A stretch of DNA of 49,549 nt, taken from the NCBI GenBank assembly GCA_026195895.1, contig JAPHRO010000041.1:1-49549 (forward strand), given 5' to 3'. Positions 1 through 49,549 of this stretch are shown piece after piece. How positions within the stretch are numbered: position 1 is the stretch's first letter; each line of letters starts with the position of its first letter. The notes under the pieces were generated by a model that searched no databases, was not told where the DNA came from, and saw nothing but the letters and a program-made list of their open reading frames with translations. The translations under genes were made by a program, and so were the position numbers. The DNA comes from Gammaproteobacteria bacterium. Lineage in GTDB: Bacteria > Pseudomonadota > Gammaproteobacteria > SZUA-229.

Positions 1-1468
1 TCTGCCCACACCAGGCCACTTCAGGCTCGGTATACGCCACCGAAGGAATGGTGCGCGCATCAAAGAACCGCGGCTGGCCATCGATGACTTCTGCCGCCAC
101 TTTTGCTTCATGGGTCGCTTTGTGAGCCAGCATCGGCTGACCCACCACGTCACCAATAGCAAAAATATGATCCACATTGGTACGCTGCTGTTTGTCGACC
201 GGAATAAATCCGTATTCATTAACCACAACACCGGCCTGTTCGGCATCGATCAATTTACCATTGGGTGATCGGCCAATTGCAACCAGCACGTTATCGAAGA
301 TATCTTCCTCGGGTGCATTCTTACCTTCGAATTTGCAAACAATGCCTTTTTTAGTCGCGTTTATTTCTGTGACTTTGGTATTCACAAAAATATTTTCGTA
401 ACGTTTTTTCAGAATCTTTTCAAAAGGACGTATCAGGTCACGATCGGCACCGGGGATTAAACCCGGACTTAATTCAACCACTGTCACTTTCGCACCCAGC
501 GCATCATAGACCGTTGCCATTTCCAGACCAATGATTCCGCCACCAACAACTAACAGTCGTTTTGGAATATTGTTTACTTCCAGCGCGTCTGTGGAATCCC
601 ATACCCGCTCATCTTCCCAGGGCACAAACGGTAATTTGGTGACCGATGAGCCGGCGGCAATAATACAATTTTCAAACGCCACGACTTGCCTGGAACCGTC
701 GTCGGCTTCTACTTCAATGGTATGCGGCGAAGTAAATTTACCATAACCGGTAACGACTTTAACTTTACGTTGTTTGGCCAGTCCCGCTAAACCTCCGGTC
801 AACTTGCCAACCACTTTATTTTTATGGGCACGTAATTTATCGACGTCGATTTTTGGTTTTTTGAACTCGACTCCCAGCGCTGAAAATACGGCGGCTTCAT
901 TGACCACTTCGGCCACATGCAATAAGGCTTTGGAAGGGATACAGCCCACATTCAAACAGACACCACCCAGACCGGCATCTTTTTCAATCAGGACAACTTT
1001 TTTGCCCAGATCAGCCGCCCGGAAAGCAGCGGTGTAACCACCAGGGCCCGAACCCAGCACAACCACTTCGGCCTGGATATCTGCATCACCATCAAAACGG
1101 GCCGCCTGTGGCGTTTCCTGTTTTGATGTTTCCTGTTTTGGTGCTTCCTGTTCTGGCATTTCTTCTTTAGCTGTTTCAGCTTCCTCTGCCACTGGAGCAG
1201 ATTCGGTTGCAGATGCCTCTGCGCTGTCAGCACTGGCTTCCAGCGTTACAATCACACTGCCCTGCGCAACTTTGTCACCAACGTTTACATTTATAGCCTT
1301 AATAACGCCGGCGTCGGTGGACGGAATTTCCATCGCTGCTTTATCAGACTCCAGTGTCACCAGGGAATCTTCAACAGCAACGGTGTCGCCGACAGAAACT
1401 AATATTTCAATGATTTCCACTTCATCGAAATCACCAATATCAGGAATTTTGATTTCAATCGTACTCAT
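1..1468 (-). CDS. lpdA: Dihydrolipoyl dehydrogenase (E3) with N-terminal lipoyl domain, 3' end outside window
   Basis: FAD-dependent E3 subunit that reoxidises dihydrolipoamide of the pyruvate dehydrogenase complex with NAD+. I translated the minus strand from ATG at 1468, which has an AGGTGAT ribosome site and lies 8 nt after the aceF stop. About 489 residues are visible; roughly 100 C-terminal residues (dimer interface with catalytic His) lie beyond position 1. Residues 1-75 are a lipoyl domain with [10 protein letters not shown] around the modified Lys. A Glu/Lys/Pro/Ala-rich linker follows, with the short repeat [10 protein letters not shown]. Next come the FAD-binding [10 protein letters not shown], the redox disulfide motif [13 protein letters not shown], the NAD-binding [10 protein letters not shown] and the second FAD motif IFAIGDV. 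E3 with its own lipoyl domain is known from other proteobacteria. Last gene of the visible aceE-aceF-lpd operon. Confidence 0.97.
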
Positions 1469-1476
1469 ATCATCAC

Positions 1477-2802
1477 CTATAACAATAAACGTCGTGCATC
1501 AGCCAGTAGATGACTTAAGTAAGTTGCAAATCGTGCACCATCGGCGCCATCAATTACGCGATGATCATACGACAAGGACAGCGGACACATCAGGCGCGGT
1601 TTGAATTTTTTACCATTCCAGACGGGTTTCATTTCGGCTTTTGATACACCCAGAATGGCAACTTCTGGTGCGTTCACGATAGGTGTGAATTTAGTGCCGC
1701 CGATACCGCCCAGACTGGAAATAGACATACTGCCACCCTGCATGTCCGAAGGTTTAAGTTTCTTTTCCCGCGCCTTGATAGAAATTTCTTTCAGCTCCAG
1801 GGAAATATCAATCAGGCTTTTCTGATCGACATTCCGTACCACAGGCACCACCAGACCATCAGGAGTATCTACAGCCACACCAACATGAAAATATTTTTTC
1901 AGGATCAGATTTTCACCACTGGCATCCAGCGATGAATTAAAGCGCGGATATTTTTTCATTGCTACCGCAAGCGCTTTCATGATGAAAGACAGCATGGTGA
2001 ACTTGACGCCCTGGTCCGCATATTCTGCATTCGATTGTTTGCGGAAAGCCTCAAGCTCAGTAATATCAGCTTCCTCAAACTGAGTAACATGGGGAATAGT
2101 CACCCAGTTGCGATGCAGGAATTTTCCGGTCAGTTTATTAATTTTGGTCAATGGCTGTGTTTCGATTTCACCGAACTGACTGAAATCAACTTCCGGCATT
2201 GGCTCGACACCCAGCGCACTGCCACCGGTTGCTGCTGCAGGCTGACTTAAAGCCTGCTTAACATAGTTCTGCACGTCATCTTTGACGATGCGGCCACTGC
2301 GACCACTGCCATCAAGTTTACTGAGATCAACTCCCAGCTCGCGCGCAAATTTTCTCACCGAGGGTGAAGCATGCGCCTTGGCAAAACGCACCGGGTCAAT
2401 ATGTGCAGTCGGTGAGGGCTTGATAGCTGGTGTTATAGGTTTAGTAGATTCAGCTTTTGTTTCTGCAACCGGTGCCGGCTTTTCTTCTGCTGCAGACTCA
2501 ACCACAACGGGCTCTTCTTCTGGTTCTACTGCAGCGAGAGGGATCTGGTCTACTGCGTGGGCACCCGCTTCCAGTACAACCACAACACTACCCTCTGAAA
2601 CGGTATCACCAATACTCACCTTTATATCCTTGATCACACCGGCATGGCTACTGGGTATTTCCATCGCCGCTTTGTCTGATTCTACGGTGATCAATGAATC
2701 TTCTTCAGCAACCGAGTCACCGACGGAGACCAGCACTTCGATAACTTCGACACCGTCGAAATCACCAATATCAGGAACTTTTACTTCAACCATTTCGCTC
2801 AT
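1477..2802 (-). CDS. aceF: Dihydrolipoyllysine acetyltransferase (pyruvate dehydrogenase E2)
   Basis: Core E2 subunit that moves the acetyl group from lipoamide to CoA. The 441 aa show one lipoyl domain (about 1-75, [10 protein letters not shown]), an Ala/Pro/Glu-rich linker, a peripheral-subunit-binding domain (about 143-180, [18 protein letters not shown]) and the acyltransferase domain with the catalytic [11 protein letters not shown] near residue 413. E. coli AceF has three lipoyl domains, this one only one; the adjacent lpd carries another very similar one. ATG at 2802 has a GGAG site seven bases upstream. It lies between aceE and lpd, separated from aceE by a 157-bp spacer that contains a palindromic repeat. 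Confidence 0.97.
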
Positions 2803-2851
2803 GGTTTTTACTCCAATGTCATTTGCCTATAGCAAACTGAATAACATCACC

Positions 2852-2952
2852 TGTCTTCTCGACTGGAGCGATAGCGAAATGGAGAGATCTAGTATATTTA
2901 TGCTGCAAAGTACAAGATCCCTCCACTACGCCAGGCTGCGGTCGGGATGACA
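2852..2952. repeat. Imperfect palindromic repeat between aceE and aceF
   Basis: Left arm 2852-2890 begins TGTCTTCTCGACTGGAGC and ends GGAGAGATCT. The right arm 2914-2952 is its imperfect inverted copy, reading on the other strand TGTCATCCCGACCGCAGC through GGAGGGATCT. The arms differ at several positions and one indel; the loop is about 23 bp. The outer end TGTCATCC(C/T)GA and the inner end GGATCT match the element at 38101-38171, so both belong to one short interspersed repeat class. Its location inside an operon suggests it is tolerated or used as an mRNA hairpin. Confidence 0.75.
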
Positions 2953-2959
2953 TTAATTT

Positions 2960-5623
2960 TTACGCTCTTGCGGGATTGGGTTTCTCAGGATCAATACCAT
3001 ATTTCTCGATGGCCTCCTGTACCTTGCCAGCCGGGAACTCACCCGCATCGGACAAAGACTTCAGTGCGGCGACCACAATATATGGCGCATTGACTTCAAA
3101 ATGCTTACGTAATTGCGCACGGGTATCAGAACGACCAAAACCATCGGTGCCCAGAACATCATATTGCACGGGAATCCATTTACGGATTTGATCCGCATAG
3201 GATTTGATGTAATCGGTCGCTGCCAGCACCGGGCCTCGACGATCCTTCAGACATTTTTCAACATAAGACACTTTCCTGTCTTTCAGTGGATGCAGCATAT
3301 TCCAGCGATCGATATCTTCGGCTTCACGTTTCAGCTCGTTAAAGCTGGTGACACTCCAGATATCGGCATCGACCGACCAGTCTTTATCCAGCATTTTGCC
3401 CGCTGCAATTACTTCACGCAGGATAGCGCCTGAACCTAGTAACTGAATTTTCTTGCGTCGCTTACCACCACCTTTCAGCAGATACATGCCTTTGATAATG
3501 CCGTCTTCGACCCCTTTGGGCATAGCCGGCTGGACATAATTTTCATTCATTACGGTGACGTAATAGAACACATTTTCCTGATCCTTATACATACGGCGCA
3601 TACCGTCCCGGATAATAACGGCCAGTTCATAACTGAATGCTGGATCATAAGACACACAGTTTGGAATGGTACTTGACAAAATCAGACTGTGACCATCCTG
3701 ATGCTGTAAACCTTCACCCGCCAGCGTAGTACGGCCGGCGGTGCCACCGATCATAAAACCACGCGCCTGCATATCGCCGGCCATCCAGGCCAGATCGCCG
3801 ATACGCTGGAAACCGAACATCGAGTAATAGATATAGAACGGCACCATATTAACACCGTGGGTGCTGTAAGCCGTGGCGGCGGCAATCCATGACGACATGG
3901 CACCGGCTTCATTGATCCCCTCTTCCAGGATCTGGCCAGTTTTGTCTTCTTTGTAGAACATCACCTGGTCTTTATCCTGCGGCGTATATAACTGGCCGAC
4001 AGAAGAATAAATACCCAACTGACGGAACATGCCTTCCATACCGAAAGTACGCGCTTCATCCGGCACAATCGGCACCACGTATTTACCCATGTTCTTGTCA
4101 CGCGTGATCAGGGTTAACAAACGGACAAAGGCCATGGTGGTCGACATTTCACGATCACCGGAACCTTTCAGGATGGGTTCAAAAGCTGACAATGGCGGTA
4201 CTTCCAGTGGTGCCGCCAGGCGTTGACGCACGGGCATAGAACCACCCAGCGCCGCGCGTTTCTCCATCATGTATTTGTATTCGTCACTGTCTTCGGCTGG
4301 ACGATAGTATTCCGCTCTGGCCGCCTGCTCATCTGAAATCGGAATATTGAAACGATTCTTGTACGCAATCATTTCTTCCTCATCCAGCTTCTTCTGCGAA
4401 TGGGTACGATTCTGCCCTTCACCCGCAGCCCCCATACCATAACCTTTTACCGTATGCGCCAGGATAACCGTTGGATGATCGGTGCATTCCATGGCTTCTT
4501 TATACGCCGCATACACTTTGTGTGGATCGTGACCGCCACGGTTCAGGCGCCAGATATCATCATCCGACATATGCGCCACCATGGCTTTTAATTCAGGATA
4601 TTTGCCAAAGAAATGTTCGCGCACGTAAGCGCCGTCTTTGGACTTGTAATTCTGGAATTCGCCATCAACCACTTCCATCATGCGGCGTTTTAACAGACCG
4701 TCTTTATCCTGCGCCAGCAGCTTGTCCCAGTAACTGCCCCAGACCACTTTAATAACATTCCAGCCGACACCACGGAAAATCGCTTCCAGCTCCTGGATGA
4801 TTTTGCCATTGCCACGTACCGGGCCATCCAGGCGCTGCAGGTTACAGTTGATTACCCAGGTCAGGTTGCCCAGCTTTTCACGGGAGGCCAGTGAAATTGC
4901 GCCCAGGGTTTCCGGCTCATCCACTTCGCCATCACCGAGGAAGGCCCAGACATTACGATCGCGAGTATCAGACAAACCGCGATCCTGCAGGTATTTCATG
5001 AAACGGGCCTGATAAATCGACTGCAATGGCCCAAGACCCATCGACACCGTTGGGAACTGCCAGAAATCCGGCATCAACCAGGGATGCGGATAGGATGACA
5101 GCCCCTTGCCATCCACTTCCTGACGGAAATTATCCAGTTGGTCTTCGGTCAGGCGGCCTTCCAGAAAAGCCCGGGAATACATACCCGGTGCTGAATGCCC
5201 CTGGAACAACACCAGATCACCACCATGCTGATGGGTTGGCGCATGCCAGAAATGATTAAAACCCACATCATATAAGGTTGCTGCAGAAGCGAAGCTGGCG
5301 ATGTGACCACCCAGTTCGGTGGATTTACGATTCGCTTTCACGACCATCGCCGCTGCATTCCAGCGAATCAGCGCGCGAATACGGCGTTCCATACTATGGT
5401 CGCCCGGCAGAGCTTTCTGCAGATGCGTCGGGATAGTATTTACATAGGCCGTATTGGATGAATGGGGTAAATTGACGCCAGAGCGGCGTACTTTGTCGAT
5501 AAGCTGCTCAAGTATATAATGAGCGCGTTCCGCACCTTCGGCTTCCAGAACGCTTTCCAGGGCATCGAGCCATTCCTGGGTTTCCTGCTGATCTATATCG
5601 TGATCCTGCATCTGAGTCGACAT
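2960..5623 (-). CDS. aceE: Pyruvate dehydrogenase E1 component, homodimeric type
   Basis: Thiamine-diphosphate enzyme that decarboxylates pyruvate and acetylates E2 lipoyl groups. 887 aa matches the E. coli-type homodimeric E1 (887 aa). The ThDP motif starts GDGEVDEPE near residue 230 and ends at NCNLQ; the N-terminal part carries HGGDLVLFQGHSAPGMYSRAFL. The E1 C-terminal domain is complete. The start ATG at 5623 is preceded by GGGAGAAG. First gene of the pdh operon, with its likely promoter about 45 bp upstream. No pdhR-type regulator gene is in the window. Confidence 0.98.
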   Translation of the reverse strand: MSTQMQDHDIDQQETQEWLDALESVLEAEGAERAHYILEQLIDKVRRSGVNLPHSSNTAYVNTIPTHLQKALPGDHSMERRIRALIRWNAAAMVVKANRKSTELGGHIASFASAATLYDVGFNHFWHAPTHQHGGDLVLFQGHSAPGMYSRAFLEGRLTEDQLDNFRQEVDGKGLSSYPHPWLMPDFWQFPTVSMGLGPLQSIYQARFMKYLQDRGLSDTRDRNVWAFLGDGEVDEPETLGAISLASREKLGNLTWVINCNLQRLDGPVRGNGKIIQELEAIFRGVGWNVIKVVWGSYWDKLLAQDKDGLLKRRMMEVVDGEFQNYKSKDGAYVREHFFGKYPELKAMVAHMSDDDIWRLNRGGHDPHKVYAAYKEAMECTDHPTVILAHTVKGYGMGAAGEGQNRTHSQKKLDEEEMIAYKNRFNIPISDEQAARAEYYRPAEDSDEYKYMMEKRAALGGSMPVRQRLAAPLEVPPLSAFEPILKGSGDREMSTTMAFVRLLTLITRDKNMGKYVVPIVPDEARTFGMEGMFRQLGIYSSVGQLYTPQDKDQVMFYKEDKTGQILEEGINEAGAMSSWIAAATAYSTHGVNMVPFYIYYSMFGFQRIGDLAWMAGDMQARGFMIGGTAGRTTLAGEGLQHQDGHSLILSSTIPNCVSYDPAFSYELAVIIRDGMRRMYKDQENVFYYVTVMNENYVQPAMPKGVEDGIIKGMYLLKGGGKRRKKIQLLGSGAILREVIAAGKMLDKDWSVDADIWSVTSFNELKREAEDIDRWNMLHPLKDRKVSYVEKCLKDRRGPVLAATDYIKSYADQIRKWIPVQYDVLGTDGFGRSDTRAQLRKHFEVNAPYIVVAALKSLSDAGEFPAGKVQEAIEKYGIDPEKPNPARA

Positions 5624-5996
5624 ACTTGCTTCTCCCGGGTCATGCCCTGCGCTACAAAACAGATGTAAAATGTAGTGGATTGACCAAAAAATGCAAGCTT
5701 ATTTTTACAAGCCATTTTTTATTTACTTAATTTTCATATGCTTACAAAGTTCAAATAATTTTTACAGCTAATTTCACAGGACTTTAATACGCCACAAATA
5801 TGTGTGATTTAATGCGGTTTAGAAAGATAAGCTTTTAACAAGTGTTAATTTTATGCTTGAAGCACAGCTTGAAATTCTTCGTTAAAAACTACAATGCCTA
5901 TGCACCATTTCTGGATCCGAAGTGAATTTGCGAAGATAGCCTTTTAATTACTTAATATTTTTTATGCAGGCTTAGCAGCCGGCCAATAATTCTCGC
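5624..5996. other. Intergenic region between aceE and the Fe-ADH gene, no gene seen
   Basis: 373 bp, clearly AT-rich. Its left end holds the candidate pdh promoter. A small perfect hairpin TTAACA-AG-TGTTAA lies at 5835-5848. The part next to the alcohol dehydrogenase stop contains a weak GGCT/AGCC stem, too short to call a terminator. No convincing reading frame with a ribosome site was found on either strand. Confidence 0.6.
5669..5696 (-). promoter_or_regulatory. Candidate sigma-70 promoter of the pdh operon
   Basis: On the minus strand TTGCAT (5696-5691) is followed after 16 bp by TACATT (5674-5669), some 45 bp before the aceE start. The spacer contains TGGTCAATCCA, a weak inverted half-site pair that only loosely resembles GntR-type (PdhR) operators. 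Prediction by eye only. Confidence 0.35.
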
Positions 5997-36870: not shown

Positions 36871-36932
36871 ATGCATTTAATGATCCCTACAAAAGACCAT
36901 TAAACAGGTTGTAATAAATTTCAATTTATATA

Positions 36933-36958
36933 ACCAATTTACATGAAAGTAAATTGGT
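36933..36958 (-). terminator. Trailer hairpin that includes the tRNA-Val 3' end
   Basis: Perfect 10-bp stem ACCAATTTAC (36933-36942) with GTAAATTGGT (36949-36958), loop six. On the minus strand the 5' arm begins with the encoded ACCA of tRNA-Val, so the acceptor end is base-paired with the trailer in the precursor. An AT-rich tail follows. Confidence 0.6.
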
Positions 36959-37031
36959 AGGCGCGAGTGGATTCGAACCACCGACCCCCACCATGTCAAG
37001 GTGGTGCTCTAACCAACTGAGCTACGCGCCT
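36955..37031 (-). tRNA. tRNA-Val (anticodon GAC)
   Basis: 77 nt with acceptor AGGCGCG/CGCGCCT, D-arm GCTC/GAGC, anticodon stem CCACC/GGTGG with loop TTGACAT (anticodon GAC), T-arm GGTGG-TTCGAAT-CCACT and an encoded ACCA. It lies between thrS and hinT, same strand as both. Confidence 0.97.
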
Positions 37032-39172: not shown

Positions 39173-40774
39173 TTAATCGATGGGTCGTACGGAATTGGGT
39201 ACGACCTCTGCACCAAAGTTCTCTTTCATGGCCTGCACCACCGGATCCTGTTCAATCGACTGCTCAGCCTGCTGCTGTCTTTCGGCGACATTGCGAGCGG
39301 CTGTTTGCGCCGGAGATTCGGTTTCCGGTTTGCCCAGACTAATCTGTAATTTGATTTTATCACCCAGATACTCACCCAGCGCATCTGCCAATTTGCTCTG
39401 CAAACCAGGGTTCAGCAACTGGGAAAATTCTTCATTTAGTATCAACTGGATCTCGCCACCGTCGCGTTGATGCAATACGCAGTTCACTGCCAGTTGTTTG
39501 ACCATGCCGCGAATATTCATTGCTTCAACCAGGCCGTGCCAGTCGCTGACCGCGACTTTAGCGACCGGCGCGGTGGCCGGCGTTGCTTGTTCTGTCGCCG
39601 GCTCTGGATTTTGCTCACCAGCATTAACCAGGGGAGCAGATGCGGCATGCGCAGTTTGCTGGACCGGTAGCCGCTCGCTCACCTGGCCGGGTGCTGGCTT
39701 GAACGCCAGCATTCTTAACAGGGCCATTTCAAAACCGGTTCGGGCATCGGGCGCCAGCGGTAAATCTTTCCGGCCGAGTAAACCGATTTGATAAAACAGT
39801 TGCACATCTTCAGCAGATACCTGGCTGGCGATTTGCTGAATGGTCTCACGTTCAACCAGATGATCATCCACCGCATCGGGCACCTGTTGAGCCAGAGCAA
39901 CCTGATGCAGCAAAGCCAGCAAATCGGCCAGCGCATTCTGATAGTCCGGCGTCATCTCGGCAAGCCGGGCAACTTCATTCATCGCCGCCGCCGCATCATT
40001 CGTTATCAGGGCATTCAGGATGGCCAATATACGATCCCGCGATACCGAACCCAGCATGGCCTGTACTTCGTCGGTATCCAGTTTGCCGCCACCGTAGGCG
40101 ATGGCCTGATCCAGCAAACTCAGGGCATCCCGCATCGAGCCATCGGCGCCATGCGCCAGCAAACGAATTGCCTGGTCTTCGAATGCCACCTGTTCGGCCT
40201 GCAATATATGTTGCAGGTGCCCCTCAATCAGTGGCATCGGCATGCGTTTGAGATTGAACTGCAGACAGCGCGATAAAATTGTCACCGGCAGTTTTTGCGG
40301 ATCAGTGGTCGCCAGCAGGAACTTCACATGCGGTGGCGGCTCTTCCAGCGTTTTCAGCAGGGCATTGAAACTGTGCCCGGACAGCATGTGTACTTCATCG
40401 ATCAGATAGACCTTAAAGCGGCCATGGGTCGGTGCATATTGCACATTATCGAGTAATTCCCGGGTATCTTCGACCTTGGTGCGCGAGGCTGCATCCACCT
40501 CGATCAGATCGATAAACCGGCCTTCCGCGATTGCCTTACAGGCGGCACATTCGCCACAGGGTGTGGAGGTGACCCCAGTTTCACAATTCAGGGATTTTGC
40601 AAATATACGTGCCACGGTGGTTTTGCCGACACCGCGGATGCCGGTGAACAAATAGGCGTGGTGTAAGCGCTCTTCATCCAGGGCATTGATCAGTGCACGC
40701 AATACATGATCCTGCCCCACCATTTCGGTGAAATTTGCGGGACGCCATTTTCGCGCTAGAACCTGATAACTCAT
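39173..40774 (-). CDS. dnaX: DNA polymerase III subunits gamma/tau
   Basis: 533 aa clamp-loader ATPase. Walker A GIRGVGKTTVARIFA (about 44-58), four-Cys zinc module between CETG and CAACK (about 64-82), Walker B YLIDEVHML near 125 and sensor 1 FLLATTDPQKLPVTILSRC near 151. The C-terminal region after about 370 is Ala/Pro-rich and shorter than E. coli tau (643 aa). I saw no A-AAA-AAG slippery heptamer, so programmed frameshifting to a short gamma form is not supported here. First gene after ffs in the ffs-dnaX-ybaB-recR order. Confidence 0.97.
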   Translation of the reverse strand: MSYQVLARKWRPANFTEMVGQDHVLRALINALDEERLHHAYLFTGIRGVGKTTVARIFAKSLNCETGVTSTPCGECAACKAIAEGRFIDLIEVDAASRTKVEDTRELLDNVQYAPTHGRFKVYLIDEVHMLSGHSFNALLKTLEEPPPHVKFLLATTDPQKLPVTILSRCLQFNLKRMPMPLIEGHLQHILQAEQVAFEDQAIRLLAHGADGSMRDALSLLDQAIAYGGGKLDTDEVQAMLGSVSRDRILAILNALITNDAAAAMNEVARLAEMTPDYQNALADLLALLHQVALAQQVPDAVDDHLVERETIQQIASQVSAEDVQLFYQIGLLGRKDLPLAPDARTGFEMALLRMLAFKPAPGQVSERLPVQQTAHAASAPLVNAGEQNPEPATEQATPATAPVAKVAVSDWHGLVEAMNIRGMVKQLAVNCVLHQRDGGEIQLILNEEFSQLLNPGLQSKLADALGEYLGDKIKLQISLGKPETESPAQTAARNVAERQQQAEQSIEQDPVVQAMKENFGAEVVPNSVRPID

Positions 40775-40977: not shown

Positions 40978-41093
40978 GGGTGGCAACCCACATCAGCCAC
41001 ACCCCGGCGCCCGATGTCGCCACTACCGTTGCTTCCTTCCGGACCTGGCGGGGTTCGCGGTTAATCGTCGCGGGGGAACCAACGTGGGTCACC
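40978..41093 (-). ncRNA. ffs: 4.5S signal recognition particle RNA (small bacterial type)
   Basis: On the minus strand the conserved SRP core GGTCCGGAAGGAAGCAACGG (GGAA tetraloop, asymmetric internal loop) lies in the middle. The ends GGTGACCCAC and GTGGGTTGCCACC pair to close the rod. About 116 nt; ends estimated from the closing stem. Located upstream of dnaX as in many gammaproteobacteria. The 203 bp between it and dnaX hold no gene. Confidence 0.95.
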
Positions 41094-41134
41094 ATAACAA
41101 GGCTGCGAATTATCCAGCCTTTACCGCATAGTTT

Positions 41135-41284
41135 CAAGCCGAATCGGCCCCAATATCATTTTGCGCCTGGTTGCGGCCTGACTTTTTAGTCTGATATAAA
41201 GCCTCATCGGTCTCTGCCAGCAATTGCTTACTTATGACTTCATCTGCCGCCAGCATCTTCGGAACTCGCTTTAAAAAACCTGTC
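41135..41284 (-). pseudogene. C-terminal remnant of a GGDEF (diguanylate cyclase) gene
   Basis: The minus strand reads open for about 49 codons between a TAG near 41285 and a TGA at 41135. It encodes LLAETDEALYQTKKSGRN, which matches the closing helix of GGDEF domains (pattern ALYxAKxxGRN). The GGDEF motif itself and the rest of the domain are missing. It lies directly downstream of, and in the same direction as, the REC-EAL gene, so it is probably the stump of a further operon gene. Confidence 0.75.
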
Positions 41285-41342
41285 TACCCATTAAATGCAG
41301 AATAAAAATACAGAATAAAATGAATGGATCCAATGATTCTTT

Positions 41343-42524
41343 TCACTGGCTGGTTCTGGAATTGATCCACTCAAGCAACTTTTCGGCAGGCATAGGCCTT
41401 GCGATATGATAGCCTTGGGCTATATCGCAACCAAGCCTGGTAAGATTATCTAGAATCCCCTGGGTTTCAACACCCTCAGCAACAACCTTCATGTTTAATT
41501 TGTGGCCTAACATGATACAGGTTTCAACAATCGCACCCGCCTCGTGATCTTTTTCCATTTGCATGATAAAGCGCTGGTCAATTTTCAGCTCAGTAAATGG
41601 CACTCGATGTAATTGCGCCAAAGATGAATAACCCGTACCAAAATCATCAATAGACAGATCAAAGCCTTTCATGCGTAAACGGGTGAGAATATCCAGTGAT
41701 TTGACCAGCTCACCCATCAAGGCAGTTTCCGTTATTTCCAGCATTAACGATGAGGCGTCGAGCCTGTTGGCATTGACCAGATTAATTAACTGATCGGGTA
41801 AACTGAGGCTGGTTATGTTCTCGGCAGAAACATTAATCGATATCTTCAATTTAAGATCATTGTCTCGCCAACGTCGATTCTGCTCCATTGCCAGTTGTAT
41901 AACCAACGATGTCAAGTCACCGATTAATCCAGATTTTTCGGCCAGAGAGATAAATGCATCAGGAAATACTAAACCAAGCGTTGGGTGTTGCCAGCGCACC
42001 AGCGCTTCAACACCGATGCAGGCATCAGTAACAAGATTAATTTGTGGCTGGTAATACAGAATCAATTCCCGATTCTCGATCGCTCGTTTTAAATCAGCTT
42101 CCGTGATATCGGTCTTCTTGCGTGCTTTAGGGGCTGTTTCAATAGGATGTGTATTCTGATAATCAACCAGCAAATCTCGCAGCTCAGTTATTTTTAATGG
42201 CTTGGTTAAACTTGCTATGACATTTAATCGAGACTCCGAAGCCAGTTCATGGGCAGAATGTAAAACACTTTTATCATAACCACTAACCAGAACCAGTCCA
42301 GCAGTAATTTTTTTCTCTGCCAGACTACGAATTACCTCAATGCCATCCATACCTGGCATCATCAGATCAAGCATAATTATTTGCGATGTATCACCCAGGC
42401 TATTCTGAAATGCTGTCCCATCATGAAAAACCTGAACAAAATAGCCCGCATCTTCAGCAACTTCTTTGAATAAATGGGCCAGGTCTATATCATCATCAAC
42501 CACTGTAAGCGTAGGAATAGTCAT
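41343..42524 (-). CDS. Response regulator with EAL domain
   Basis: 393 aa: receiver (about 1-120; VVDDDIDL, phospho-Asp in IIMLDLMMPGMDG, SLTKPLK) and EAL phosphodiesterase domain (about 140-390; GVEALVRWQHP, EITETALM, IDDFGTGYSSLAQL, KIDQRFI, VAEGVETQGI). The catalytic EAL signature is intact and no GGDEF domain is present, so it should hydrolyse c-di-GMP. Its ATG overlaps the stop of the 899-aa hybrid kinase by one base (TAATG), making that kinase a likely phosphodonor. Confidence 0.95.
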   Translation of the reverse strand: MTIPTLTVVDDDIDLAHLFKEVAEDAGYFVQVFHDGTAFQNSLGDTSQIIMLDLMMPGMDGIEVIRSLAEKKITAGLVLVSGYDKSVLHSAHELASESRLNVIASLTKPLKITELRDLLVDYQNTHPIETAPKARKKTDITEADLKRAIENRELILYYQPQINLVTDACIGVEALVRWQHPTLGLVFPDAFISLAEKSGLIGDLTSLVIQLAMEQNRRWRDNDLKLKISINVSAENITSLSLPDQLINLVNANRLDASSLMLEITETALMGELVKSLDILTRLRMKGFDLSIDDFGTGYSSLAQLHRVPFTELKIDQRFIMQMEKDHEAGAIVETCIMLGHKLNMKVVAEGVETQGILDNLTRLGCDIAQGYHIARPMPAEKLLEWINSRTSQ

Positions 42525-45223
42525 TATATTTTCGGCTCATCAAGTGAATTTCTTATTGCTTTCAAAATATCATTAGAACTATATGGTTTATGCAATAAAG
42601 TATATTCCTGATTTATGCCTTCAGTGTTTAAATGCTGCATATCGGTAAATCCACTAGCCATAATAATTTTTAAATGCGGATAAATATCTGCTACTTTTTG
42701 AGCTAACTGATAACCATTCACCCCAGGCATAATCACATCACTTATTATTAAGTCAATATTTAGACCCGAGTTTGCTAAAATTTCCAACGCCGCCATGGCA
42801 TCTTCAGCCTTATATACGGTATAGCCATGGTTTATCAGGATTTCTTCCGCCAGGTCTCGTAATGATGGCTCATCATCTACAATGAGTATAGTTTCGTTTC
42901 CTGCAGTCGTCTGGCTTCCTGTTTCTTCTCGGTTTATCGTTTCTTCGATATCGCCCTGAAATCCTGGAAGATAAATAATAAAACTCGTTCCCTGATTCAG
43001 TTCGGAATAAACATGAATAGTACCGCCCAGGCCTTCAACAAAACCGTATACCTGGCTTAAGCCCAGGCCAGTACCCTTTTCTCCTTTTGTGGTAAAAAAC
43101 GGATCAAATATTCTTGATCGGGTTTCCTTGTCCATACCAATACCGTTATCTGTTATACCAATCTGCACATAATCACCTTCCCGCAAATGCAGATTTTGTG
43201 CTTCAGGCTTCTGCAAATGAATATTGTGCGTAGTTATTGAAAGAACACCGCCGTCAGGCATCGCATGCATGGCATTGATACAGATATTTAAAATGGCATC
43301 CTGAAAACCCGCACGATCCATCCAGACCAACCAGATATTTTCATATAAATCCATACTAATTTGAATGCGCGCCGTCAGCGTACGCTGCAGAATCTGACGG
43401 TCGGCGTTCAGCAGATCATTAACATTAACCACATCTGACTGACTGGCCCGGCGCTTTGTAAAAGCCAGTAATTTTCGGGTAAGCGTGGCACCTCGTTCAC
43501 CCGCCTTACGTATTTCAGCCACATATCGCGATAATTTTTCTTCTTTTTGTAGCGCCATCGCCAGGATTTCTGCATATCCCATTATGACGCCCAACATATT
43601 GTTATAGTCATGTGCTATGCCACCCGTCAGCTTACCCAGAGCTTCCATTTTCTGACTACGATACATATTTTCTTCATTCAGGCGCTGTTCAGTAATATCA
43701 CGACTAATACCGATAAGACCTAATACTTTTCCATCAACCGTGTAAAAAGGTGTTTTTAAGGTTGTCAATAAGACACGACGACCATCCGGGTAGGTAACCC
43801 ACTCCTCATTTTCTCGTGACTGTTTGCTATGCAACATTTTTTTGTCCATTTCACGAAAAAATTCTCCAACCTCGGCTGGAAACAGGTCGAGGTCTGTCTT
43901 GCCAATAATATCTTCTTCAGAAAGTCCAGCAAACGTCTCAAACGCTTTGTTACACCCAATGTATACGCTGTCCGTATCTTTATAAAATATAAAATCAGGC
44001 ACAGAATCAATTAATGAACGCAATAATGACTGCTCTCGAAGCAGTTTTTCTTTTTCTTCCAGCAAAGCCTGCTGCGATAATTTTCTCTGGGTTATATCAT
44101 GAGCAAAGCCTTCAACCGCAATAACATTGTTTTGATTATCAAAAACAGGTACTTCCGTCACCTCAAGTAAATGAACGTTCCCGTCTTTATGATAAATCTC
44201 TACTTCATATACCGGCTGCTTTTCACCGCGCATGCTTCGCTGGCTATATTCTTTAGCTTTTTCATTAACTGGATTATCGGTTAGATATTTATTATTAAAC
44301 CCAATGAATTCCTCCGGCGAATAACCCAGAACATTTTCGATTGCAGGACTTAAAAAGGTAAAGACACCACTGGTATCATATAAATAAAAGAAATAGTCTG
44401 GTGTTACATTCTCGACTAAACGCCGATATCGTGACTCACTATTTTTCAAGGCATCATGACTGATATGCAGCTTCTGCTCACGCTCATTCATTGTGTGCAG
44501 CATTTCATTAAAATCATGACTCAACTCCTGTAACTCATCATGTCGATTCAGGGAAACTTTAACATCACGTTCACCGTCAATGATTTTTTGCAAGGCCATT
44601 GTCAACTGCCTTATACCACGGGTAAGCCCATTTGCCATAAACCAGGCAAACACAGTTCCAGCTAAAATCGCAACCGCAATATAAATCAATCCTTTCTGAG
44701 TGATTTCATCAAAACTTGTTATTAGTTTATCCCGACTTAAAACAACTCTAACCCAGCCAATGTGCTTATTTTTTATCCATGCTGGCGCAAGCACATCAAT
44801 AGCTGACTCAGTCGCAACAAGTATTTTGCTGTGAGCTGGCTTATCCACTGGCTTATCCAGTAGATTCATGCTGCTATCGCTATTAATAATGAATTCCTGG
44901 TCAACAAAACCAGCATCAGCAAGCGCTTTACCATTCATATCCAGAAATATTATACGCCGCAATCCTGATACCTTTGACTGTGCAGCAATAATGTCACTTA
45001 AAACAACTGCATCCCCGGCATTCATCCAGGCTGCTCCGTTAGCAGCAAGTGTTTCAGCAAGACTTATAGCCTGAACATTTTGTTGCTGAAACATGAAATC
45101 TTTCTGCCTGGAAATAAAATCAAACACAAATACAGTCATCAACACTGCATGCACCAGGGCAATACCCAGCATTAATTGGCGAGCAAGTGAATGACAGCAT
45201 AAACGTTTAAGAAAACTTATCAT
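42524..45223 (-). CDS. Hybrid sensor histidine kinase (two TM, HAMP, two PAS, REC)
   Basis: 899 aa inner-membrane kinase. Order: TM1 (about 14-36), periplasmic sensor (about 37-175), TM2 (about 176-198), HAMP, then PAS/PAC domains near 265-385 and 400-520. Then come HisKA with phospho-acceptor GGIAHDYNNMLG (near 538), HATPase (NICINAMHAMP, DNGIGMD, TKGEKGTGLGL) and a C-terminal receiver (ILIVDDEPS, LIISDVIMPG, LHKPYSS). GGAA precedes the ATG at 45223. It is closely similar in its kinase-receiver half to the upstream 1212-aa kinase. Overlaps the REC-EAL gene start. Confidence 0.95.
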   Translation of the reverse strand: MISFLKRLCCHSLARQLMLGIALVHAVLMTVFVFDFISRQKDFMFQQQNVQAISLAETLAANGAAWMNAGDAVVLSDIIAAQSKVSGLRRIIFLDMNGKALADAGFVDQEFIINSDSSMNLLDKPVDKPAHSKILVATESAIDVLAPAWIKNKHIGWVRVVLSRDKLITSFDEITQKGLIYIAVAILAGTVFAWFMANGLTRGIRQLTMALQKIIDGERDVKVSLNRHDELQELSHDFNEMLHTMNEREQKLHISHDALKNSESRYRRLVENVTPDYFFYLYDTSGVFTFLSPAIENVLGYSPEEFIGFNNKYLTDNPVNEKAKEYSQRSMRGEKQPVYEVEIYHKDGNVHLLEVTEVPVFDNQNNVIAVEGFAHDITQRKLSQQALLEEKEKLLREQSLLRSLIDSVPDFIFYKDTDSVYIGCNKAFETFAGLSEEDIIGKTDLDLFPAEVGEFFREMDKKMLHSKQSRENEEWVTYPDGRRVLLTTLKTPFYTVDGKVLGLIGISRDITEQRLNEENMYRSQKMEALGKLTGGIAHDYNNMLGVIMGYAEILAMALQKEEKLSRYVAEIRKAGERGATLTRKLLAFTKRRASQSDVVNVNDLLNADRQILQRTLTARIQISMDLYENIWLVWMDRAGFQDAILNICINAMHAMPDGGVLSITTHNIHLQKPEAQNLHLREGDYVQIGITDNGIGMDKETRSRIFDPFFTTKGEKGTGLGLSQVYGFVEGLGGTIHVYSELNQGTSFIIYLPGFQGDIEETINREETGSQTTAGNETILIVDDEPSLRDLAEEILINHGYTVYKAEDAMAALEILANSGLNIDLIISDVIMPGVNGYQLAQKVADIYPHLKIIMASGFTDMQHLNTEGINQEYTLLHKPYSSNDILKAIRNSLDEPKI

Positions 45224-45277
45224 TTACTTTTCCAAATACCTTATTCCTGGGCTTCCGCATATAATTCAACATCAACA

Positions 45278-48200
45278 CTATTCTTCCTGATCAAGTAAAC
45301 GGCGAATTTTTTCAAGCAACTTTATTGAGGTAAATGGCTTGTGTAACAAATCTTTATATAATGACTCTTTCCTGACACCCTGATGCAGACCATCATTGAA
45401 ACCACTGGCTATTTGAATTTTCACATGAGGGAATTTATTTGACACTTCATCGGCCAACTCATAGCCGTTCATTCCAGGCATAATAACGTCTGTCAGGAGC
45501 AAATCGATTTTATCTGTTTCGAGTATTTCCAATGCATGCCGGGCATCGTTAGCCATAATGACCTGGTATCCATGCTGGCTAAGTATTTCTCTGGCCAGAT
45601 CTCGTAGATCTTGTTCATCATCAACCACCAGAATAGTCTCATTACCTTCACAGCTATCAATTTTTTTATTATCATTTTTTATATCTGCTAGCTGGTCCGC
45701 TTGATATCGAGGAAAATACAATGTAAATCGTGTCCCCTTTTCAAGTTCTGAATATACACGTATAGCACCCTTTGATCTTTGCACAAAACCGTACACCTGA
45801 CTCAAGCCCAGACCAGTACCATTCTCGCCTTTTGTTGTATAAAAAGGTTCAAATATCTGGAGTCTGGTGTCTTCATTCATTCCAGCGCCCGTATCTTCCA
45901 GTGACAGGCGAACATACTCCCCGGCATTTAACCCCAGTATACTTGCCTCAGAATTCCCCAGCACTTCATTACTGGATTCTATTTTTAGTGTGCCGCCTCC
46001 AGGCATAGCATGCATTCCATTAATACACATATTCAGAATCGCGTCTTCCAGGTCTCCCTTATCCAGAAAACTTAACCATAAGTTATCCTCCAGGATTAAC
46101 TTCAGTTTCACCTGCGCCGTCATCGTTTTAGCAAGCAGATGCTCATCATCTAATAGCAATTGATTAATATCCGTCGGCTCTGCCTGAATATCCTTACTGC
46201 GAGAAAAGGCCAGCAAACTGCGGGTCAGCTTTTTACCTCGTTCCCCTGCGTGCAAAATTGTTTTTATATATTTATCCAGTTTTGGATTATCCGATAACTG
46301 CATTTCAAGCAATTCAGCATACCCCAGAATAACGCCCAGCATATTATTGTAATCATGCGCAATACCGCCAGTTAGCTTGCCTATCGCGTCCATTTTCTGC
46401 GCACGTTTTACCTGATCTTCATTGATTTTTATCTGAGTAACATCACTACATGATGCTATAAAACGTCGCACATTGTTTTCATCTACTGGCAATTCAGCTA
46501 ATGCCAGACGCATTGGGAATATTTCTCCGTTCCTTCTCTTTGCATTAACTTCTCTGCTAGCCCCTATCACCCTGGCCTCACCAGTTTCCAGGTAAGCCTG
46601 AATATAATCGTCATGATTTTTCTTATACGGCTCCGGCATAAGAAGATTAACGTTCTGACCGATAACCTCCATCGAAAGATAGCCAAACATTTTCTCTGCA
46701 GATGGATTGAATGAAAGAATCCTTCCTGTCTGATCAATAGTAATAACACCATCAATAAGATTATCCAGCAAGCGTCGATTTTCTGTTTCCTTGCGCCTTA
46801 ATATACTTTCTGTTTGCCTGCGTCGCTCGGCCTCCAGCGAAATAGCCATGGTACTGGCAATTGAAATAACAAACTCCTGTTGCTCCAGCGTCCATGGCTG
46901 CTCATCGTTAATTCGCTCACAACAAACCGTACCTAACACTTCACCATGTAATCGAACAGGCACATTCAGCATTGCTTTAATTCCAAGAGGAACCAGATAG
47001 GAATCAAGCAATTCTGCACATACAGGATCATTGGAAACGTCCTCTACAACAAGCACTACATCACGCAATAAAGCCTTGAAATACTCCGGACAATCTTGCT
47101 GTTCTCTCAGCAAACCTTTTTCATGGCTATCTTCATTTAACAAATAAAGCTCTTCACATTCTATGGCATCAAGAGATCCTGAAAACAACCAGATACTGAC
47201 TCTATCAACCTGCAAATTTTTAGCCGCCAACCGTGTAGCACTTCTAAAGGCCTGTTCAATATCGAGATAATCGACTTTAGCCCATTCAAGCAAAGCATTT
47301 TGATTATTACGCATTTGCTCATTGCGCTGGTTTTCCTTATCGCGCGCAATCACTTTTTCAGAAATATCTACAATAATACCTACTACTCGTACAGGTTCCC
47401 CCTGATCATCTCTTTCCGTTACTTTTCCTCGCCCCATCACCCAAAACCAGCTACCATCTTTTTTCTGCAGCCGATGTCCCGCTTCATAAAATTCTGTTTT
47501 GCCACTCAAGTGCGCCTGCAATGCAGCATATACATGGCTTTCATCATCCGGATGTATTATTTTTTTCCAGCTTGATATATGGGACTCAATTTCACCCAGT
47601 TCATAACCCAGCATCGTTTGCCATCTGGGGCTGTAATACACTTCATCAGTAACAATATTCCAGTCCCACAAGCCCTCCTCTGTTGCTTCCATTGCCAGTT
47701 GTAAGCGCTGCTCACTTGCTTTCATGGCATTTTGCATTTCATAATTTCGGGTCACATTTTGAAATACCATGATGACACCATGAATTACTCCAGTAGCATC
47801 TTTAATAGGTGCAGCACTATCTGCTATCTGATATTCCTTGCCCTGTTTATCAATCAACGAGGTATGATTAGCCAGTCCAACAATTTGACCGGTTTTAAGA
47901 ACCGTCTCAACAGGGCTTGATATAGGTTCTCGAGTTTTTGAATTAATAATATTGAAGACTCGATCAAGATGATGCCCTACACCTTCATTCTCAGCCCAGG
48001 CGGTAAGCTGGCAGGCGGCTGGATTCATTCTGGTAATATAACCTTCTGCATCAGTCACTATGACGGCATCACCAATACTTTGTAATGTCAGAGTGAGGTT
48101 CTGCTCTCGATCTCGAATTTCATTAAAAGAATTTTCCAGTACATTCTGGTGTGCCTCAATACTGGATATCATCTGATTAAAAAAATTACCCAAAAACCCA

Positions 48201-48916
48201 ATCTCATCATGCCCCCTGGCATCCAGGCGATATGAATAATTACCCTTCGATACATTTATTGCCGCTTCAGTAATTTTATTAATACGCTTTATATAAAGAA
48301 AATAAACGAGGGCACTGAATAATCCAGTTAATAATATCAGTGACAAAAAAACTGGAATTTGTGTATTAACAAGTGATGCAAGCACCTGGAATTTAATCCA
48401 GCTCAAATCATAATCCAGAACAAGAACACCTATAACATCAGGCCGGATAGAAGCCTGGCTCGTCCCGATTACTACCGGCTGCATAATATACATGCTATCT
48501 GACCCAGAGACTTCAAGATGATATTTTAACGAGCTTCTAACATCGATAAATTCTCTAAAAACATTCTGATTCGAGACAATGGCAGGAATTTTATCTACCG
48601 AATTACCAATGTATTCGATGCGAGTTGAAGCTGAAACAATATCCTTTTCATTGATAAGGACGGCAAGGCGCAAATGTTCATCTGAACCCAGACTTGTTAT
48701 CTCTTCCTGCACTTGCTCCAGCTCATTTTTATAGTGCAAAAATTCCAGTATACCCTGCAAAAAATTTGCCTTGGCTACCAGTTCTTTTTTTACCTCCTGC
48801 CGTAAACTATTATCAATTTCCCTGTACCCAGTGTACATTAAAACGCTGGCCTGCAAAAAAAGCAGCAGTAGCGCCAGAGCAGTAATTGAAACAACTATTG
48901 GGAAATGAATTTTCAT
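45278..48916 (-). CDS. Large hybrid sensor histidine kinase (PAS-PAS-GAF-PAS, REC)
   Basis: 1212 aa. TM1 (about 8-29), periplasmic sensor domain (about 30-185), TM2 (about 187-209), HAMP (about 210-262), PAS (about 275-395), PAS/PAC (about 405-525; WFWVMGRGKVTERDDQGEP) and GAF (about 555-700). A third PAS follows (about 712-835), then HisKA with GGIAHDYNNMLGVILGYAEL near 858, HATPase (MCINGMHAMPGG, TKGENGTGLGLSQVYG) and a C-terminal receiver (ILVVDDEQDL, LLLTDVIMPGMNG, LLHKPFTS). It follows the truncated substrate-binding-protein gene by 31 bp; such proteins often serve as the periplasmic sensor for adjacent kinases. The ribosome site is weak. Confidence 0.95.
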   Translation of the reverse strand: MKIHFPIVVSITALALLLLFLQASVLMYTGYREIDNSLRQEVKKELVAKANFLQGILEFLHYKNELEQVQEEITSLGSDEHLRLAVLINEKDIVSASTRIEYIGNSVDKIPAIVSNQNVFREFIDVRSSLKYHLEVSGSDSMYIMQPVVIGTSQASIRPDVIGVLVLDYDLSWIKFQVLASLVNTQIPVFLSLILLTGLFSALVYFLYIKRINKITEAAINVSKGNYSYRLDARGHDEIGFLGNFFNQMISSIEAHQNVLENSFNEIRDREQNLTLTLQSIGDAVIVTDAEGYITRMNPAACQLTAWAENEGVGHHLDRVFNIINSKTREPISSPVETVLKTGQIVGLANHTSLIDKQGKEYQIADSAAPIKDATGVIHGVIMVFQNVTRNYEMQNAMKASEQRLQLAMEATEEGLWDWNIVTDEVYYSPRWQTMLGYELGEIESHISSWKKIIHPDDESHVYAALQAHLSGKTEFYEAGHRLQKKDGSWFWVMGRGKVTERDDQGEPVRVVGIIVDISEKVIARDKENQRNEQMRNNQNALLEWAKVDYLDIEQAFRSATRLAAKNLQVDRVSIWLFSGSLDAIECEELYLLNEDSHEKGLLREQQDCPEYFKALLRDVVLVVEDVSNDPVCAELLDSYLVPLGIKAMLNVPVRLHGEVLGTVCCERINDEQPWTLEQQEFVISIASTMAISLEAERRRQTESILRRKETENRRLLDNLIDGVITIDQTGRILSFNPSAEKMFGYLSMEVIGQNVNLLMPEPYKKNHDDYIQAYLETGEARVIGASREVNAKRRNGEIFPMRLALAELPVDENNVRRFIASCSDVTQIKINEDQVKRAQKMDAIGKLTGGIAHDYNNMLGVILGYAELLEMQLSDNPKLDKYIKTILHAGERGKKLTRSLLAFSRSKDIQAEPTDINQLLLDDEHLLAKTMTAQVKLKLILEDNLWLSFLDKGDLEDAILNMCINGMHAMPGGGTLKIESSNEVLGNSEASILGLNAGEYVRLSLEDTGAGMNEDTRLQIFEPFYTTKGENGTGLGLSQVYGFVQRSKGAIRVYSELEKGTRFTLYFPRYQADQLADIKNDNKKIDSCEGNETILVVDDEQDLRDLAREILSQHGYQVIMANDARHALEILETDKIDLLLTDVIMPGMNGYELADEVSNKFPHVKIQIASGFNDGLHQGVRKESLYKDLLHKPFTSIKLLEKIRRLLDQEE

Positions 48917-48947
48917 ATTTGGCTTATTGCATTAATTATCCACTAAT

Positions 48948-49448
48948 TTAATCATTAACTGGAAACAAAACGCTGGTATCAATTTTTTTTACCATTAATT
49001 TATTATCAACCATAATGCTGGCAAGTTTTTCCGACGTAGCCAACAGCTTTGCCTGTTTTCCATTTCCCAACAAATCATCGCTTTGTTTTAAATCAGGCAA
49101 TCTCAAACCAATATAGGAATCAAGCGTTTCTTCTGGCGACAACTTCATACGAGTAGAAATCTGTTGGGCAGCCAGATGCGGATTATTGGCAAAATACTTT
49201 AGCGCTTTAAACCAGCTATGCTTTAAAGCCTCTATGCGCTGAGGATACTTTTTTAAAAAACTCTCCCTGACCACTAATACATCGACTATCTCACCCGGCG
49301 TTTGACTGCTATCGAATAATTGTCGCCCCCCCTGCTCAAGCAGCATGCTGCGCACCGGTTCAAAAGTGACTACCGCATCAATCTTACTTTCTTCAAAAGC
49401 ACGAAGCTGCTTATCTATATCGAGGGGAACCACATCCAGTTGACTCAC
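48948..49448 (-). pseudogene. ABC-type substrate-binding protein (NMT1/SsuA-like), 5' part removed by an IS
   Basis: 166 codons remain. VVPLDIDKQLRAFEESKIDAVVTFEPV is the lobe-2 region of NitT/TauT- or SsuA-type periplasmic binding proteins, and VLVVRESFLKKYPQRIEALKHSWFKAL continues the fold. Full proteins have about 320 residues and a signal peptide; both lobe 1 and the signal peptide are missing. Immediately upstream, about 10 bp before the GTG at 49448, lies the end of an IS30-type element, so the gene appears interrupted. Ends 31 bp before the 1212-aa kinase, whose sensory partner it may have been. Confidence 0.8.
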
Positions 49449-49457
49449 TGTGCGGTT

Positions 49458-49549
49458 TCAACCGGTCGATGCAACACATTCATAAAAACGGTCAGCCGGT
49501 GTTTCATAGTTTAACGTTTTTCTTGGGCGTTCGTTCAATTGTCTTGCAA
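49458..49549 (-). mobile_element. 3' end of an IS30-family transposase, rest outside window
   Basis: The minus strand from the window edge reads ARQLNERPRKTLNYETPADR and ends in a TGA at 49458. The LNxRPRKTLxxxTPAxxF pattern is the C-terminus of IS30-type transposases. Between the stop and the interrupted gene lies GGTTTCAACCGGTCGATGC, likely part of the terminal inverted repeat, overlapping the end of the coding region. The IS transcription direction is toward the kinases, so it could provide or disturb their expression. Confidence 0.8.

Follow-up and report, generated by a model that had tools for sequence, protein, structure and literature searches.

A candidate c-di-GMP-lowering sensory operon with a binding-protein gene interrupted by an IS30-type element

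Layout of the locus and the split binding-protein gene

The window, by which we mean the whole stretch of DNA that was analysed, is the entire 49,549-bp contig C23 of a draft genome (84 contigs, approximately 99% complete). The window ends, together with the contig, inside an IS30-type element. Read from this end on the minus strand, the unit is composed of the IS30 end, the C-terminal part of a substrate-binding protein (SBP), two hybrid kinases (K1 and K2), a REC-EAL phosphodiesterase, and a GGDEF fragment, followed by ffs and then dnaX. All parts named in the original prediction are present on this strand and in the order given there. The features are as follows.

49451–49549, minus strand: right end of an IS30-family element with the transposase C-terminus, cut by the contig end
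49448–49450, minus strand: CAG, the 3-bp target-site duplication on the right side (its left copy is at C6:6398–6400)
48948–49448, minus strand: C-terminal part of the SBP, NMT1_2/SsuA-like, periplasmic (Pfam PF13379, E 8.5e-7; also by alignment with relatives)
C6:5917–6400: N-terminal part of the SBP, 161 aa, lipobox LIAC (from the profile search of the own genome)
45278–48916, minus strand: K1, 1212-aa membrane hybrid histidine kinase
42524–45223, minus strand: K2, 899-aa membrane hybrid histidine kinase
41343–42524, minus strand: REC-EAL phosphodiesterase of 393 aa (one-base overlap with K2)
41134–41283, minus strand: C-terminus of a diguanylate cyclase, an open remnant (GGDEF-like part at approximately 41232–41167)
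40988–41084, minus strand: ffs, small SRP RNA, the downstream border of the slot described below (Rfam RF00169, 64.7 bits)
39173–40774, minus strand: dnaX, the conserved neighbor by which the slot was located in relatives

The stop codon of the SBP gene is separated from the start of K1 by 31 bp, and the gap between K1 and K2 measures approximately 54 bp. K2 and the REC-EAL gene share one base (TAATG). The GGDEF-like residues of the remnant, which is on the same strand as the operon, lie approximately 110 bp beyond the REC-EAL stop codon. The proposal of a single operon, made from the one-base overlap, holds for the co-directional genes of the binding protein, the kinases, and the c-di-GMP enzyme. 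Elsewhere in the window, Rfam reports an HPnc0260 match at 36872–36993 on the plus strand, antisense across tRNA-Val, which is probably spurious (61.4 bits against a threshold of 59).

The missing part of the SBP gene is located on another contig. A profile of 17 full-length SBPs of the family and the window fragment identified two pieces only in the organism's own genome, and no intact copy: model positions 20–162 on contig C6 and 161–323 on C23. A scan of the named genomes with the SBP fragment alone gave no match; the profile of full-length relatives did match. At its right end, the IS30 element has a terminal inverted repeat of 26 bp, TGTTGCATCGACCGGTTGAAACCGCA, with its end at 49451. On C6, the SBP frame continues into TGCGGTTTCAACCGGTCGATGCAACA, which is this repeat in exact reverse complement, and the left end on C6 and the right end on C23 thus match perfectly over 26 bp. 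CAG is present on both sides of the element as a 3-bp target duplication. The IS30 family typically duplicates 2 bp of its target, and 3-nt spacers have also been reported (PMC5821093). The empty site, with one CAG removed, restores an uninterrupted frame of 327 codons that encodes a 327-aa lipoprotein. Its N-terminal half contains the sequence VMSLIAC-DP, judged by eye to be a lipobox as in the relatives, and neither half has decayed further. The matching repeats, the duplicated CAG, and the rejoined frame show that a single, recent IS30-type insertion split the SBP gene.

Contigs C46 and C11 also end in the final 99 bp of C23 (98–99 bp identical); the assembly therefore stopped at a repetitive sequence. 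The bases beside the repeat on C46 and C11 differ from CAG (TGA, GTA). A related 307-aa transposase with a nearly identical C-terminus is encoded on contig C42, and the IS30 copy in the SBP gene is assembled at its two ends only. The adjacency of C6 and C23 is confirmed independently by their surroundings. A tRNA-Ser(GGA) gene is located on C6 at 5661–5748, 168 bp before the SBP start, so that the operon occupies the interval between tRNA-Ser and ffs that we also find in relatives.

The binding-protein gene had been described as truncated. It is broken, as claimed, but not merely truncated, since its 5' part survives on C6, where the opposite end of this IS30 element lies. The further claim, that the kinases and the phosphodiesterase are intact next to it, is borne out: K1, K2, and REC-EAL retain open frames and catalytic motifs.

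Partners of the binding protein, the kinases, and the phosphodiesterase

The relatives matched to named records are metagenome-assembled genomes of Gammaproteobacteria. Homologs of the SBP in its family (approximately 330 aa) are mostly followed, immediately 3', by a gene for a membrane hybrid kinase or a GGDEF sensor. A wider set of 80 named genomes includes Gammaproteobacteria, Cyanobacteria, Aquificota, Nitrospinota, and Planctomycetes. A sensor gene, encoding a kinase or a GGDEF protein, is next to the SBP gene in 55 of the 80 and upstream of it in two; at the remaining loci no gene is called in range, the contig ends, or the gene is unclassified. A motif search found an ABC ATPase at two of the 80 named SBP loci, and the operon itself has no ABC transporter gene. 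The pairing with sensors and the rarity of ABC ATPases support a function of the SBP in sensing and not in transport, which fits the class of SBP-stimulated receptors (PMC9602780) and the NspS-MbaA system (PMC8079147). That the binding protein belongs with a membrane sensor, as originally suggested, is thus upheld by a conserved gene pair. We propose a putative physical activation of the receptor by the ligand-loaded SBP.

K1 is composed of a transmembrane-periplasmic-transmembrane-HAMP module, three PAS domains, a GAF domain, a HisKA-HATPase core, and a REC domain. Its best relative, in G028 (53% over the kinase part), is also encoded directly 3' of an NMT1_2 SBP. K2 contains sCache_3_2 and HAMP domains, two PAS domains, HisKA-HATPase, and REC. 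Full-length relatives of K2 (46–48%) are present in four genomes of another genus (G034–G037), each preceded by a PhnD-like SBP (PF12974). When the first 260 residues of K2 alone were used to search the class for its sensor, a PhnD-like gene was found directly upstream of the K2-type sensor in 17 of 17 distinct loci, ten from other families and seven from the same family. A search of the gap of approximately 54 bp between K1 and K2 found no PhnD remnant, and the sole PhnD-like gene found in the own genome (27%) adjoins another kinase. K2 is therefore without a dedicated SBP, a point that goes beyond the original prediction. In our interpretation, the locus encodes a sensory module that lowers c-di-GMP and in which neither kinase currently has a binding protein. 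A recent tandem duplication as the origin of K1 and K2 was considered and rejected, since the two match each other at 44%, over the kinase part only, against the 53% and the full-length 46–48% to their respective relatives.

The REC-EAL protein has intact EAL, DDFGTGYSS, and ELKID motifs, as read in its translation. Its best NCBIfam match is PvrR (NF052596) with 282.5 bits, below the equivalog cut-off of 580; the protein may work like PvrR but is therefore not filed as PvrR. Related REC-EAL genes are positioned directly 3' of a hybrid kinase gene at 10 of 21 loci. The REC-EAL gene of G028 ends a PhnD-kinase-REC-EAL unit whose parts lie on two contigs that overlap exactly over 127 bp. G028 was rejected as a carrier of the intact ancestral operon, as its SBP-K1-like and PhnD-kinase-REC-EAL genes form separate loci. 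The complete order SBP-K1-K2-REC-EAL was not found in any relative examined, and the ancestral four-gene operon is thus itself a deduction.

Related arrangements vary in the genes that accompany the kinases. A longer similar array in G009 (L152, G009:C79:106000-122000) has the order PhnD, kinase, kinase, PhnD, kinase, REC-EAL, REC-EAL. In G050 and G049, a double rhodanese protein takes the place of the SBP before the kinase/REC-EAL pair (L157 10694-11620 and L158 10386-11327), which hints at a sulfur-related input.

The tRNA-Ser/ffs slot and the cyclase remnant

The arrangement tRNA-Ser, variable content, ffs/dnaX occurs in at least 13 relatives. The slot contains hemC, recognized by eye from the translation, in six genomes (G002, G011, G033, G043, G044, and G045; the ffs gene of G011 itself was left unscanned). 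It is empty in G049. An intact REC-GGDEF gene is located directly upstream of ffs, on the same strand as the remnant studied here, in G050, G051, and G052, which have no operon there. G034–G036 carry a REC-PAS-GGDEF-EAL gene, and G037 carries such a gene together with a Porin_O_P gene and a hybrid kinase gene. Other genes precede ffs in G028, G030, and G032, with no tRNA-Ser within the stretch read.

Some slot genes deserve a separate description. In G037 (L216/L324, G037:C85), the slot encodes a phosphate-selective porin (Porin_O_P), a hybrid kinase of approximately 1270 aa, and the GGDEF-EAL protein. The REC-GGDEF-EAL gene of G035 (L215 3070-6008) is called as two overlapping frames of 783 and 224 aa, likely due to a frameshift or an assembly error. 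On C6 (L114), upstream of the SBP gene, positions 3–3242 hold an open-ended 1080-aa frame with NIT-HAMP-PAS-GGDEF-EAL-REC domains, so that the upstream side of the operon is also rich in c-di-GMP genes. Positions 4376–5356 of C6 encode a DUF4421 protein of 327 aa that probably belongs to the outer-membrane type; its gene adjoins tRNA-Ser(GGA) and is transcribed away from the SBP gene.

The GGDEF remnant is short, with approximately 22–30 recognizable residues. Compared with GGDEF C-termini, it scores 64, and shuffled versions of it average 28 and reach at most 44. The resemblance is therefore not due to chance, and the remnant is a genuine cyclase C-terminus, as had been supposed. Among 35 GGDEF C-termini, the best match is another GGDEF protein (64), and the ffs-adjacent REC-GGDEF proteins rank second, third, and fourteenth (the first two with 61 and 58); the remnant is too short for a tree. 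The own genome contains no orthologue of the REC-GGDEF gene of G050–G052 elsewhere, the best match being 37%. Most likely, the remnant is the 3' end of the former REC-GGDEF gene of the slot, displaced around the arrival of the operon, rather than a component that the operon has lost. This assignment draws on position more than on sequence.

The original prediction held instead that the operon had ended with its own diguanylate cyclase, thereby combining synthesis and breakdown of c-di-GMP, and that this gene decayed to the remnant. The strand of the remnant, its place directly after REC-EAL, and its genuine GGDEF end agree with such an origin. However, a GGDEF gene lies within 3 kb downstream at none of the 21 related REC-EAL loci, so the remnant does not look like a part of the module. 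The closest REC-EAL gene (G028, 62%) is followed by pncC/recA-type genes, as judged from translations, and the ffs-adjacent cyclase occurs independently in three relatives from which the operon is absent. We consider the loss of an own cyclase improbable. The comparison with relatives thus cut both ways: the GGDEF gene is missing at the operon position, which counts against the cyclase claim, and the binding protein is present, which leaves that claim standing. Decay at both ends of the operon, as first described, is correct in that both genes are broken; the absence of downstream GGDEF genes and the REC-GGDEF genes before ffs indicate that the two ends most likely have separate causes, a transposon insertion and the remnant of a displaced neighbor. 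It is rather unlikely that two events befell the neighbor, with the operon entering the space that separated tRNA-Ser from a complete REC-GGDEF gene, and the 5' part of this gene lost later by an unrelated deletion. The slot synteny, the shared strand, and the short distance from REC-EAL to the remnant are in line with this order of events, and nothing decisive speaks against it; the data fit both courses, but a single event is simpler. Beyond the displacement of a former neighbor, which we prefer, K2 might have been placed behind a foreign SBP-kinase pair and share the NMT1-type SBP of K1, giving one SBP, two receptors, and one phosphodiesterase, with the tRNA-Ser(GGA)-ffs interval as a lineage-specific exchange site for alternative c-di-GMP modules. 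We regard this extension as doubtful.

Proposed working and comparison with known systems

Overall, the locus is probably best explained as a c-di-GMP-lowering sensory operon (lipoprotein SBP, K1, K2, REC-EAL) in the variable slot between tRNA-Ser(GGA) and ffs-dnaX, with its SBP gene split by IS30 and the remnant of a former neighbor behind it. We hypothesize that, in the intact state, the SBP would bind a small solute and dock on the periplasmic part of K1, which would change the balance between the kinase and phosphatase activities of K1. K1, and probably K2, would then determine how far the REC domain of REC-EAL is phosphorylated, and hence the breakdown of c-di-GMP. Gene order suggests the phosphotransfer from K1 or K2 to REC-EAL, and the signal path and the putative loss of ligand control follow from protein families and gene order. 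Phosphotransfer from hybrid kinases may depend on a separate Hpt protein. At present, there is no full-length SBP for K1 and no PhnD-type SBP for K2, and the catalytic parts are intact.

It is also possible, if somewhat improbable, that the IS30 element does not silence the system, and that transcription from the element reads into K1, K2, and REC-EAL, which would work without ligand control in a constitutive kinase or phosphatase state. The transposase gene is co-directional with the operon, no terminator-like site was seen between the IS end and K1, and the retained frames and catalytic motifs of the three downstream genes are consistent with continued use. IS30-family ends can supply promoter parts (PMC9330008); however, no convincing fusion promoter was found at the junction of the IS30 right end and the SBP gene.

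The split SBP gene provides a concrete case of a c-di-GMP circuit whose input was cut by a single traceable transposition while its downstream parts stayed intact. The relatives link two classes of binding proteins, NMT1_2 and PhnD-like, to two types of sensors. The constant PhnD-like neighbor of K2-type sensors, from about ten families, suggests that many proteins annotated as 'phosphonate-binding' are really signaling proteins. The tRNA-Ser/ffs slot offers a simple marker for tracing c-di-GMP gene turnover in this lineage.

The literature yielded mostly nothing specific on combinations of an SBP, a hybrid kinase, and c-di-GMP. In the NspS-MbaA system of Vibrio cholerae and Sinorhizobium meliloti, a periplasmic polyamine-binding protein controls a c-di-GMP enzyme (PMC8079147, PMC9993111). 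As in the locus described here, a separate periplasmic SBP is encoded with a membrane receptor, and the output is c-di-GMP. The present locus differs in its NMT1_2/SsuA-like SBP, the hybrid histidine kinase as receptor, the separate REC-EAL response regulator, and the interruption of the SBP gene. PvrS/PvrR with RcsC/RcsB, from the PAPI-1 island of Pseudomonas aeruginosa (PMC3842833, PMC2696094), likewise lies on an acquired segment and comprises a REC-EAL phosphodiesterase and two sensor kinases. Unlike there, the REC-EAL protein of the present operon scores far below the PvrR equivalog cut-off, an SBP accompanies the kinases, and RcsB-like regulator and cup fimbrial genes are absent.

Hybrid kinases followed directly by REC-EAL, as here, are found within the family in G009, G013, G028, G049, G050, and G052. 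In G009 the kinases are likewise arranged in tandem and outnumber the SBPs, but none of these loci has the SBP-K1-K2-REC-EAL combination. TorT-TorS and LuxP-LuxQ are examples of sensor kinases stimulated by SBPs. Such kinases form a recognized class (PMC9602780), with which the present locus shares the position of the SBP gene, immediately ahead of that for a membrane hybrid kinase, and the lack of adjoining ABC transporter genes. It departs from the class in its tandem kinases and in K2, which lacks the PhnD-type partner present with its sensor type in all 17 relatives examined. The system thus belongs to a class already known, that of SBP-coupled kinases, here with a c-di-GMP phosphodiesterase, and its SBP-K1-K2-REC-EAL combination is a variant.
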